A program made the translations under genes and the position numbers. A stretch of 64,000 bases of DNA from NCBI RefSeq assembly GCF_019550915.1, contig NZ_JAHWCI010000002.1, positions 372,001 to 436,000 of the forward strand, given 5' to 3'. Each line of letters begins with the position of its first letter. The first letter of the stretch is position 1. A model generated the notes under the pieces. That model was given only the letters and a program-made list of their open reading frames with translations, was not told the DNA's origin and ran no database searches. Source of the DNA: Mumia sp. zg.B17 (GTDB taxonomy: Bacteria > Actinomycetota > Actinomycetes > Propionibacteriales > Nocardioidaceae). This document shows positions 43,081 through 46,098 of this stretch, in pieces.

Positions 43081-43154
43081 CGGGCTGTGGCGCAGCTTGG
43101 TAGCGCACTTGACTGGGGGTCAAGGGGTCGCAGGTTCAAATCCTGTCAGCCCGA
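43081..43154 (+). tRNA. tRNA-Pro (anticodon GGG)
   Basis: Acceptor CGGGCTG/CAGCCCG, D arm GCGC-GCGC, anticodon stem CTTGA/TCAAG with loop CTGGGGG (anticodon GGG), T arm GCAGG-TTCAAAT-CCTGT. CCA is not encoded. Its 3' half is the left copy of the att repeat. Confidence 0.97.
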
Positions 43155-43158
43155 CCGA
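43121..43158 (+). repeat. att repeat, left copy (in tRNA-Pro)
   Basis: Spans the anticodon-stem 3' strand, variable loop, T arm, acceptor 3' strand and the next bases of the tRNA gene. Identical to 46061-46098; bases just outside differ on both sides. Confidence 0.95.
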
Positions 43159-43159
43159 T

Positions 43160-43194
43160 TTCAGGCTCGGAGATCTGTGATCTCCGAGCCTGAA
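43160..43194 (+). terminator. perfect 16-bp hairpin after tRNA-Pro
   Basis: TTCAGGCTCGGAGATC, loop TGT, GATCTCCGAGCCTGAA. It starts 6 bp after the tRNA and just inside the element. Stem is strong; no U-run. Confidence 0.75.
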
Positions 43195-43282
43195 GCGTCT
43201 GAGATTTGATACACCCTCCAGAACCCTCCTTCCCGGAGGCTACTTCTCCCGACTCGGACGACGGGTAGCCGGAGGTAGGGGA

Positions 43283-43774
43283 GTGTGGTCCATGACGAAC
43301 CACACCGCCCCTGCTATTGCGGCTCTCACCAAGCCCACCGGCATCCTGGTGGCCGTCCGGCGTTCCAAGACCGACCAGGACGGCCACGGCCAGCTCGTCG
43401 GCGTCGCCCGCGGCCAACACCGTCAGACCGACCCCATCGGCGCCCTGGAAGCCTGGCTCAAGGTCCGCCCCCCGCAGGCCACGGCGCTCTTCACCCGGGT
43501 CTACGCATCCGGAACCGCCACCACCGAACGCATCGCCCCCCGAGCGGTCAGCAGACTCGTCCAGGACCGCGCCAACGCGGCGGGCTTCGAGGGCCTCCCC
43601 GTCACCGGGCACTCCCTTCGCGCCGGGCACGCCACCACGGCGTCGCTCAACGGCGCCCCGATCGAACGGATCGCCGCCCAGACCCGCCACCGCGACCTCA
43701 GCACGCTGCTCAACCACTACATCCGCCCCGCGAAGCGCTCGCGACCAGCACCAGCCGCGACCTCGGAACTCTGA
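43283..43774 (+). pseudogene. tyrosine integrase remnant (C-terminal half, frameshifted end)
   Basis: About 163 codons of a phage-type tyrosine recombinase catalytic domain. HSLRAGHATTA (His and Arg of HxxR), QTRHRDLSTLLNHYI (second His/Arg and Tyr nucleophile) are recognisable. The N-terminal DNA-binding half and the first catalytic Arg are absent. Near 43733 the frame breaks: the other frame reads REALATSTSRDLG, which is the expected family end, so one base is missing. Cannot be active as it stands. Position beside tRNA-Pro indicates it once moved this element. Confidence 0.8.
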
Positions 43775-44081
43775 GCCGCCTCGATCGGCGCTGACCCCCG
43801 TACAAGCGTCCAGTCATCGGCGGGATCGCGCGGATCGCGGAGATCCAGACGCGGATGGTCGCGTCCCAAAGGCGGCGTTGTGACCGTTGTTGGCGGGGGT
43901 GCTCAACGTCCTGACATGCCGATGAGCGTGCGTACGTCCTGAGATCTAAGGTGCCGGAGGAAACCGGCACCAGTTCCATGTCCGTAGGGTCCAGCGAGGC
44001 ACGTGCTCGCTCCGCCAGCAAGTCGGGGCTGTCTCGTAGCAGCGCGATGAGTTCATTCTGGCTGACGTAGCGGATGGGCAT
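43710..44081 (-). CDS. doubtful small ORF in the element
   Basis: Starts MPIRYVSQNELIALLRDSPDLLAERARASL at 44081 and overlaps the integrase end. The first 50 residues have a plausible helical composition; the rest is Arg/Ser-rich and looks like noise. No family recognised; third-position G+C is lower than in neighbours. Confidence 0.25.
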   Translation of the reverse strand: MPIRYVSQNELIALLRDSPDLLAERARASLDPTDMELVPVSSGTLDLRTYARSSACQDVEHPRQQRSQRRLWDATIRVWISAIRAIPPMTGRLYGGQRRSRRLRVPRSRLVLVASASRGGCSG

Positions 44082-44250
44082 GCGGCTCATACTGCGTTGC
44101 CTGGCCGCCGTTCAAACCCACAGTCTCTTCAACCGGCCTCCGCACACGAACGCCCTCTCGCCGCGGAATGTCCCTCGCGTCCATCGCGGAGCGGGCTCAA
44201 CTAACCAGGCATTCAACTGAGCATGTATTGCCGAACTCGTCCGCACGGGT

Positions 44251-44661
44251 ATGGCGTCTGCTGACGCCTATGCCTCTGACACCAGGCACGACAAACTCAT
44301 CATGGAGCTCCAAGGAGAGGTGAATAAGCTTCAGAAGATAGTCGAGAACCCAGCCAAGCGGATCTCCAACTCAGACAAGCCCAAGCGGATCAAAAGCCGG
44401 GAAGCCTCCCCGAGAACGGTTATGCCTTGTCGCCATTTGGCCGTACTTGCCTCGGGTATCTCGAGGATCTCGATCCCGAACAAGGTAAAGACATGGTGGA
44501 GGGCGAGGACCGCATGGCTACTGCCGAGCGAGGCGAGCACGACGACCTCGAACTCTGATCTCTCATCTAGCCATGAGTTCGCGCGGTCCTGCGATGTGCG
44601 GACGCGTCGGCCCTCAGCCAGAACGAACCTGGGCGGTCAGCCGCGCCGCGAGTTCCACTGA
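44251..44661 (+). CDS. doubtful ORF in the element, possibly frameshifted
   Basis: 136 codons with an N-terminal coiled-coil-like part (IMELQGEVNKLQKIVENP, 17-34). From about 44360 another frame of the same strand looks more coding (SPFGRTCLGYLEDLDPEQG to a stop at 44557), which suggests a break. Region has low G+C for this chromosome, as expected for acquired DNA. Overlaps the MTHFR-like gene end. Confidence 0.25.
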   Translation: MASADAYASDTRHDKLIMELQGEVNKLQKIVENPAKRISNSDKPKRIKSREASPRTVMPCRHLAVLASGISRISIPNKVKTWWRARTAWLLPSEASTTTSNSDLSSSHEFARSCDVRTRRPSARTNLGGQPRREFH

Positions 44662-45537
44662 AGCCTCGATCTCTTCGCGCCGGATCGAGACGCTTTCCAC
44701 GTTGAGGCCGAACGGAACCTCGAGTCGGCGGCAGAAGTCGGCGAGTTCAGCGGCTGTCGCTGCTGCTTGCTCCAACGAAGCGCTCAGCGGGTTCGTCGAG
44801 TGCCGCAGGTCGTTCTCGATCCAACGCGGGACGTCGACCCCGAGCCATCGAAGGAACTCGAGGGTCTTTATCGAGCCGCAGACCGAGAAGGTGAACACGA
44901 TCGGCGCTGGAGGCATCTCTCGCGACTGGCACGCATAGCGGTAGTCAGAGACCAGGTTCTTGGCGGCGTTGACGTCGTAGACGACCTGGGTGACGAAGAA
45001 GCGACAGCCCGCCTCTTGCTTCGAGATCAGCCGCAGGTGCTCGTTCTCGCGGCGACTGTGCCGCTCAGGGATCGCAACTCCCCCGAGAAGCAACCCCGGG
45101 TTGAGCTCGGCGCGCAGCGCCTGCGCCTCGGCAAGGGACACCGGCCCGGAGGCGCTGCTGGAGGCGGCGCCGACCATCACCGTCAACGTGCGGCTGGGAT
45201 CCTGCTCAGAGAGCCAGATGCGCAGACCCTCGCGCTGATACTTGCCAATCGCCCGGTAGACGATGACCGGCGTCCGCCACGACTGGAAGTGGTCGGACCG
45301 GTACTCGGAGGGGTCAACCGTCGGGCTGAAGGGGAACGGGCGCTCCGACGGGTTGCGGGAGCTCTCGTCGTCGATGTCGTACAGGACCAATCCGTCGAGA
45401 TTGAGGTGGTCCAATCGCTCGACGGTGGCGCGGGCGATCTCCGGGAACCGATCGGCGGGCGTCGACTGCCGCGGGGGCGTGATGGCAAAGAGGACGAAGT
45501 CGCCCTTGCCGGCCTCGATTCGCTTTGCGAGATCCAC
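44614..45537 (-). CDS. methylenetetrahydrofolate reductase-like protein
   Basis: 307 residues from GTG 45537. The TIM-barrel pattern of the MetF family is visible: FAITPPRQSTPADRF, RLDHLNLDGLVLYDIDDESS, a GAASSS/GPVSLAEA turn, LLLGGVAIPERHS, FVTQVVYDVNAAKNLV (FITQxxYD in MetF) and a C-terminal IKTLEFLRWLGVDVP. FAD would sit in the barrel. The N-terminus differs from true MetF and resembles the MetF-like group found in actinobacteria whose substrate is not settled. Appears intact, the only intact cargo gene of the element. Confidence 0.8.
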   Translation of the reverse strand: MDLAKRIEAGKGDFVLFAITPPRQSTPADRFPEIARATVERLDHLNLDGLVLYDIDDESSRNPSERPFPFSPTVDPSEYRSDHFQSWRTPVIVYRAIGKYQREGLRIWLSEQDPSRTLTVMVGAASSSASGPVSLAEAQALRAELNPGLLLGGVAIPERHSRRENEHLRLISKQEAGCRFFVTQVVYDVNAAKNLVSDYRYACQSREMPPAPIVFTFSVCGSIKTLEFLRWLGVDVPRWIENDLRHSTNPLSASLEQAAATAAELADFCRRLEVPFGLNVESVSIRREEIEASVELAARLTAQVRSG

Positions 45538-45642
45538 GTGGCGAGGGTAGCGGCGCCAGACCCGTCCTGATATGCCGCGATCCGAGTGTGCGGGTCGGCT
45601 GCTGACCTACCCGGCCGTTGACAAGCGTGACAGATTTCCCGC

Positions 45643-46029
45643 ATGCAGCTCACGCGGACATACGAATGGCAGGGCCGCTCGGTCGCCTGGGACCGTCTCG
45701 GATCCGGGCCGGCCGTGGTTATGTGTCATGGCACCCCGTGGTCTTCGGCTTTGTGGCAACCCTTTGCTGAAGCTCTCAGCCGCGAGTTCGCCGTCTACCT
45801 ATGGGACATGCCCGGCTACGGCCAATCGTCCATGAACCCCGCTCGCCGTGTCGATCTTGGGACGCAAAGCACGCTGTTCCGTGAGCTACTCCGGCACTGG
45901 GACGTGGAATCCCCCCACGTCGTCGCGCATGACTACGGAGGTGCGGTTTCGTTGAGAGCATTCCTCCTGCACGGCGCATCCTTCGCTTCCTTGGCTCTGG
46001 TCGAGGGGATCGCAGGTTTTCCGACTTGA
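45643..46029 (+). pseudogene. alpha/beta hydrolase, truncated at the right end of the element
   Basis: 128 residues. RTYEWQGRSVAWDRLGSGPAVVMCHGTPWSS, DMPGYGQS and the nucleophile elbow region AHDYGGAV (Asp in place of Ser, as in dehalogenase/epoxide-type members) are present. The protein then stops at LALVEGIAGFPT, 31 bp before the att repeat. The second half with the cap, acid and His residues is missing (usual length about 270). Likely cut by an element-boundary deletion; inactive. Confidence 0.8.
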
Positions 46030-46060
46030 TCGGAGTCGTCGCCGAGGTGGCTGACGGCTC

Positions 46061-46098
46061 CAAGGGGTCGCAGGTTCAAATCCTGTCAGCCCGACCGA
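46061..46098 (+). repeat. att repeat, right copy
   Basis: Exact copy of 43121-43158. Lacks the 5' half of a tRNA, so it is not a tRNA gene. Confidence 0.95.

Follow-up and report, generated by a model that had tools for sequence, protein, structure and literature searches.

A probable decayed integrative element with an intact MTHFR-clan gene at the tRNA-Pro(GGG) gene of Mumia sp. zg.B17

The tRNA-Pro(GGG) gene in the window analysed here, a 64,000-nucleotide (64-kb) stretch of the Mumia sp. zg.B17 genome (contig NZ_JAHWCI010000002.1, positions 372,001 to 436,000), is followed by 2.94 kb of DNA enclosed by two identical copies of the 3' part of the tRNA. This 2.94-kb islet is very probably (probability about 0.92) the remnant of a mobile element that was integrated into the 3' half of the tRNA gene by tyrosine-integrase recombination. 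An integrase remnant adjoins the tRNA, the repeat is present in a single copy at the corresponding site of all five congeners, and the islet carries an intact MTHFR-clan cargo gene that stands apart from the copies of the congeners. The islet looks like a relic rather than a working mini element.

The history that we infer, with its recombination event, succession of deletions and loss of mobility, would be as follows. The copy of the tRNA 3' half that the element carried would have been placed against the chromosomal 5' half, leaving the tRNA whole, and the original chromosomal 3' half would have been pushed to position 46061. Later deletions would have shortened two genes, a hydrolase gene by its 3' half and the integrase gene by more than half. 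Excision by the element itself is probably no longer feasible, and it would be held in place with one MTHFR-clan cargo gene intact.

The attachment repeats and the integrase remnant

The target tRNA-Pro(GGG) gene was intact (43081..43156, + strand; ARAGORN) and the same tRNA was present in all five congeners (G001 to G005). The attachment (att) repeat on the tRNA side (43121..43158, +) and the distal att repeat (46061..46098, +) were identical over 38 bp and the identity ended at exactly 38 bp on both sides. On base composition alone, the window would be expected to contain only about 5e-12 direct repeats of this kind, so that a chance origin was ruled out and the perfect repeat reported in the original prediction was confirmed. 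The repeat had been described as the tRNA 3' half plus 4 bases; the first part held, but the extension is 2 bases past the tRNA as delimited by ARAGORN and 4 past the discriminator base by reading. No other tRNA gene was found in the window by ARAGORN, so the distal copy is a 3' half without a 5' half. When the whole genome (3.86 Mb, 18 contigs) was searched with a 34-mer core, allowing up to 3 mismatches, there were 2 occurrences and no third copy. The distal copy was preceded by TCC, as were 5 of the 8 other distal copies that were printed (G234, G252, G307, G336 and G356, but not G115, G080 and G027). A terminator-like hairpin with a perfect 16-bp stem (inverted repeat I1; 43160..43194, +) lies directly 3' of the tRNA-side repeat; in the congener G004, the single tRNA-Pro copy is followed by a hairpin with the identical 16-bp stem (L040, 9738-9777).

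The DNA between the tRNA and the integrase remnant (43159..43239, +) is probably a P'-arm-like element end, as suggested by DNA matches to two other genomes of the family. Positions 43087-43239, which partly include the tRNA, matched the tRNA-Met and the stretch downstream of it in a G043 element (71% over 158 bp), and 43121-43229 matched, in G234, a second copy of the att sequence with its flanking DNA (86% over 112 bp). The tyrosine integrase remnant itself (43292..43774, +; 160 residues) kept the C-terminal part, but the N-terminal domain was gone and so was the stretch around the first catalytic arginine. It matched Pfam PF00589 with 34.9 bits (cut-off 27.1) over profile positions 76-170 of 172, in agreement with the integrase remnant originally proposed beside the tRNA. 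Positions 43325-43735 aligned with residues 181-317 of the 329-residue G043 integrase (77%), while about residues 4-180 had no counterpart; the lost part includes AMRPGE, which we take to be the motif with the first catalytic arginine of the tyrosine integrase family. The start region gave a weak match to G043 (18 of 21 bases, E 0.085), which suggests, as a less certain step, that the start codon region was also kept and was joined in frame to the C-terminal part. Only a remnant was found where a functional integrase would be expected and its function has presumably been lost; its ratio of nonsynonymous to synonymous substitution rates (dN/dS), 0.22-0.25, showed no relaxation.

Relatives of the remnant were matched in 31 of 120 family genomes, its own included, and the best were longer open genes in G043 (76-77%) and G009 (70%). 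The G043 integrase gene adjoins a tRNA-Met(CAT) gene in the same orientation and lies in a 4.2-kb segment flanked by two copies of the 3' part of this tRNA. The window matched this element twice, first from inside the tRNA up to 43239 and again from position 43326 onward. In G115, a more distant relative (46%) is found in the same tRNA-Pro, with repeat copies 14.0 kb apart. PF00589 matched three places in the Mumia sp. zg.B17 genome, 1) the remnant, 2) an XerD-like gene at window 34494-35567 that scored above the XerD cut-off, and 3) a gene on contig C9 that was closest to XerC and scored below the XerC cut-off. No other tyrosine recombinase was found with this profile, a search that did not extend to serine integrases.

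Occupancy of the tRNA-Pro site in congeners and in the family

In all five congeners, as in the window, the tRNA-Pro gene lies downstream of der and of a hydrolase gene (42323-42940). The 34-mer core, searched with up to 3 mismatches, had one copy in each congener, at the syntenic tRNA, so the site appears to be unoccupied in all five. A shorter core found two further places per congener, with 2 and 3 mismatches, which are probably other tRNA genes. The single copy in five of five congeners and the match of the left arm to the G043 element upheld the proposal of site-specific integration into the 3' end of the tRNA gene, with cargo. The DNA 3' of the tRNA-Pro gene varies between congener species. 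Likeness to the window resumed at 58920-60142 in G001, G002 and G005 and at 49842-51602 in G004, and none was seen in the 13 kb after the tRNA of G003; the congeners did not place the right junction exactly.

Copies of the repeat were counted in 148 family genomes, its own included, with a 32-mer and at most 1 mismatch. Two or more copies were found in 44 of the 148. In at least 25 genomes, its own included, two copies were on the same strand of one contig within 110 kb, although the pair was away from the best tRNA match in G017, G019, G026 and G074 and most pairs were counted without inspection. Since at least 24 of the 147 other genomes had paired copies, such repeats are common at the family level. 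The closest pair was 0.14 kb apart (two of the five copies of G058) and the widest 105 kb (G110), and the small spacings included 0.76 kb (G027), 1.5 kb (G243), 3.6 kb (G252) and 3.8 kb (G080).

Two of these small segments, both in the same tRNA-Pro, were inspected by eye. The 3.8-kb element of G080 (L198, 4999-8812) has an integrase-like open reading frame (ORF) and also an adjacent pair of ORFs, one PIN-like and the other small and helix-turn-helix-like. In the 3.6-kb islet of G252 (L222, reverse complement, 6136-9693), no integrase was recognised between the copies; one ORF resembles an AbiEii-type nucleotidyltransferase and an integrase-like ORF lies beyond the second repeat.

The repeat-flanked elements elsewhere, of 3.8 kb (G080), 4.2 kb (G043) and 14.0 kb (G115), also bear on the suggestion that a larger island had shrunk to 2.9 kb. 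Shrinkage is supported, but the idea that the element was once much larger is not, given these sizes and the extent of the visible losses, about 0.5 kb of the integrase and about 0.45 kb of the hydrolase.

The cargo genes

The only intact gene recognised in the islet, a 307-codon MTHFR-clan gene (44614..45537, - strand), was assigned from PF02219, the PDB entry 3ijd and its relatives. The Pfam match was weak (27.5 bits, cut-off 24) and the NCBIfam fadh2 score, 22.4 bits, was under the cut-off of 293.7. The sole solved relative at E <= 0.01 was 3ijd (E 1.7e-83), which is named uncharacterised. That the gene is the canonical MTHFR was rejected, a strong PF02219 match being located at C10:300921. 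The mycobacterial protein Rv2172c is reported as an MTHFR in the work consulted (PMC8765232).

Genes of this type were matched at E <= 0.001 in 18 of 118 relatives, its own included, of which 2 were marginal, with one place in each. The islet copy is the only one in its own genome and its closest relatives were 78-84% alike, while all five congeners hold one copy that is 63-68% alike to the islet gene. In a tree of 82 rows, made from 91 loci and the window after six duplicates, short hits and hits with stops had been dropped, the islet gene was one of 18 rows in a clade (support 100/99) without any row from the five congeners; the program flagged the branch of L134 at the root as long. The clade comprised G011, G055 and G061, which belong to other genera, and named Nocardioides and Solirubrobacterales records, which may include the window's own genus. 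The proteins of G011, G055 and G061 were identical to named Nocardioides or Nocardioidaceae records, which suggests that the family whose genomes were compared is Nocardioidaceae. The copies of four congeners, 80-87% alike among themselves, grouped outside the islet clade, and that of G005 (L163) was of another type. Since the G005 type is unlike the other four, the genus may have seen more than one exchange of this gene.

The copies of G001 to G004 are about 50-100 kb downstream of their tRNA-Pro genes. The matching surroundings in the Mumia sp. zg.B17 genome (G000) are on contig C6, at about 481-499 kb, and hold no MTHFR-like copy. It is conceivable, though we consider it doubtful, that a gene replacement took place. 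The element would have imported an MTHFR-clan gene of foreign origin and the native copy would have disappeared from the host genome; the inactivating deletion in the integrase gene would have locked the imported gene in place next to tRNA-Pro as the sole copy, and the remainder of the element would have eroded.

The gene may be transcribed from a putative leaderless promoter. A TANNNT-type -10-like motif, TACCCT (45544..45549, -), is located 6 nt ahead of the GTG start and is kept in relatives, with a TANNNT motif at the equivalent place in 16 of 17 upstream regions (the window and 16 of its 17 clade relatives; L069 was left out). The dN/dS of the islet gene against five relatives was 0.13-0.20, and five pairs of relatives gave 0.15-0.27. 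Present use of the gene does not follow from these ratios, because the integrase and hydrolase remnants also showed no relaxation. Neither the integrase remnant nor the hydrolase gave a match of 60 bits or more, the weaker hits having been dropped, in the flanks of 80 named loci of the MTHFR-like relatives.

The second cargo gene is a fragment, the 5' part of an alpha/beta hydrolase gene (45643..46008, +; about 121 of 270 codons), whose ORF closes at 46029. It matched PF00561 at profile positions 1-102 of 245, and its likeness to full-length relatives ended near 46005, shortly before the distal repeat; its dN/dS was 0.12-0.16, with no relaxation. An att-like 15-mer with one inserted base, AGGGGATCGCAGGTT, occupies window 46003-46017, where the hydrolase likeness ends, and is statistically weak, since 124 of 45,380 background 58-nt windows scored equally high. 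Hydrolase homologs in G001, G002 and G005 adjoin a gene that matched window 61402-63132. Their place corresponds to window 60975-61399, where the window has 0.4 kb and no hydrolase. The G003 homolog is on another contig than its tRNA, and a close homolog was not found in G004 (best 33%).

The stretch between the integrase remnant and the MTHFR-clan gene (43775..44613) has no recognised gene and a GC content of 61.4%, compared with 69.1% for the window. Neither the ORF at 43710-44090 (-) nor that at 44251-44661 (+) had a Pfam match, and 43775-44613 matched none of the loci gathered up to that comparison. Elsewhere in the window, the eight 839-bp segments of lowest GC content (54-56%, mean 69.1%) start between 17001 and 21201, and 17001-22039 is possibly a separate acquired region.

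The right boundary, alternative explanations and known systems

Several observations weigh against the interpretation of the islet as an integrated element, 1) the start of the integrase was matched weakly, 2) no excisionase, replication or transfer gene was found among the five ORFs scanned between the repeats, smaller ORFs lying outside the scan, 3) the DNA to the right of the distal repeat is common to no congener, 4) the best relatives of the GNAT gene on that side, among the matches listed from 118 genomes, reached 34-38% over most of the length and 43% on a short stretch, and 5) the right boundary is not proven by a clean empty site, since the congeners lack the DNA beyond the distal repeat and synteny returns only at 49842 or 58920.

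The flank of the distal repeat (46099..46166, +), which contains a hairpin and was delimited by family matches, may be either the native sequence downstream of tRNA-Pro or the edge of an older tandem element. When 46061-46270 was searched in 245 family genomes, five others matched to about 46166 (78-86% over about 106 bp), and a sixth piece (77%) was found at a contig start of G356, after a truncated copy of the repeat. The flank followed an intact tRNA-Pro in G234, G356, G336 and G235, and in G307 it followed a copy without the 5' half. On this point the outcome was ambiguous for the expectation that the sequence from 46099 onward would directly follow an intact tRNA in related genomes; a like flank does so in four, but three of them have further copies, 16.4 kb (G234) and 76 kb (G356) downstream and on another contig (G336), while in G307 an exact copy that includes the tRNA 5' half lies 12 kb upstream. 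Only G235, whose genome is 87% complete, lacked a second close copy. The proposal that these were clean empty sites was dropped, G235 alone being left. The left-type flank of the window follows the second copy in G234 (86% over 112 bp), the reverse of the order in the window, and no integrase of this kind was present in the 5.9 kb beyond. Judged from these alignments, a flank of these types seems to mark the border of an element in some genomes, whereas in others (G235 and G004) it is simply the sequence next to a tRNA.

A plausible extension, to which we give somewhat less than even weight, is that the islet is the tRNA-proximal member of a tandem array, in which 46099 to about 49840 would be an older, more decayed element at the same tRNA and the distal repeat would join the two; it is compatible with the integration proposed above. 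In G234 and G356, which have their other copies downstream of the tRNA, the flank probably belongs to the edge of an element, the reversed order of flanks in G234 is in keeping with an array, and the GNAT gene on the right had no close relative among the matches listed. However, G235 has the same flank type after its tRNA without a second close copy, likeness ends at 46166, just past the hairpin, PF00589 detected no integrase debris to the right in the islet's own genome, and that genome has no third repeat.

The original prediction had also allowed for a non-autonomous element moved in trans, which on this reading would never have carried an integrase itself. The 3.6-kb repeat-flanked islet of G252 at the same tRNA, without a recognised integrase, would be a parallel, and no other mobile-type tyrosine integrase was found in the genome with PF00589, the only others being XerD-like and XerC-like; but the integrase-side end of an element is present in the islet, together with a correctly oriented remnant of an integrase-family gene, and with this debris of its own integrase such an origin is very improbable. 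Least probable of all is a partial duplication of the tRNA or a rearrangement without site-specific recombination, since the repeat adjoins integrase debris and spans the same part of the tRNA as the att repeats of other elements there, often with the same 5' context, even though the cargo genes are of chromosomal type and have chromosomal homologs elsewhere in the congeners (all five for the MTHFR-like gene, four for the hydrolase).

An integrated and decayed element thus remains the preferred explanation. The islet offers a small, readable case of a tRNA-borne element that has decayed while one cargo gene stayed whole. It is also a further sign that, in this family, the tRNA-Pro(GGG) gene downstream of der is often used for integration. 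If the gene replacement were true, site-specific integration would be a route to the turnover of a widespread metabolic gene. Existing knowledge of such elements is unchanged by the islet, which is a decayed integrative element, similar to a cis-mobilizable element (CIME), of a known and ordinary kind.

As described in the sources consulted, a CIME keeps both att sites, has lost the integration genes and sits at the 3' end of the target gene (PMC5704250), and CIMEs and microCIMEs occur in tandem arrays (PMC7563491). The islet likewise retains both att sites, has an integrase remnant only and is located at the 3' end of its target gene. It differs in that the integrase is partly retained and no integrase-bearing element was found beside it or in the genome with PF00589. 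No conjugative or mobilizable ancestor was found, and the scan of five ORFs between the repeats revealed no transfer gene. Actinomycete integrative and conjugative elements (AICEs), tandem insertion and possible remnant AICEs have been described at actinobacterial tRNA genes (PMC3218068, as far as consulted). The islet shares the tyrosine integrase, the tRNA 3' end and the att repeat with AICEs of the pSAM2 type, but no rep or tra gene was recognised in the same five ORFs. The G043 element has the closest integrase found (76-77%), the same orientation, related DNA between the tRNA and the integrase and, as a further likeness, 4.2 kb between its repeat copies, whereas it differs in its full-length integrase ORF and its tRNA-Met target, and no cargo was seen to be common to both. 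The G115 element shares the tRNA-Pro(GGG) target, the orientation and a related integrase (46%) with the islet and differs in its length, 14.0 kb, and its full-length integrase ORF.

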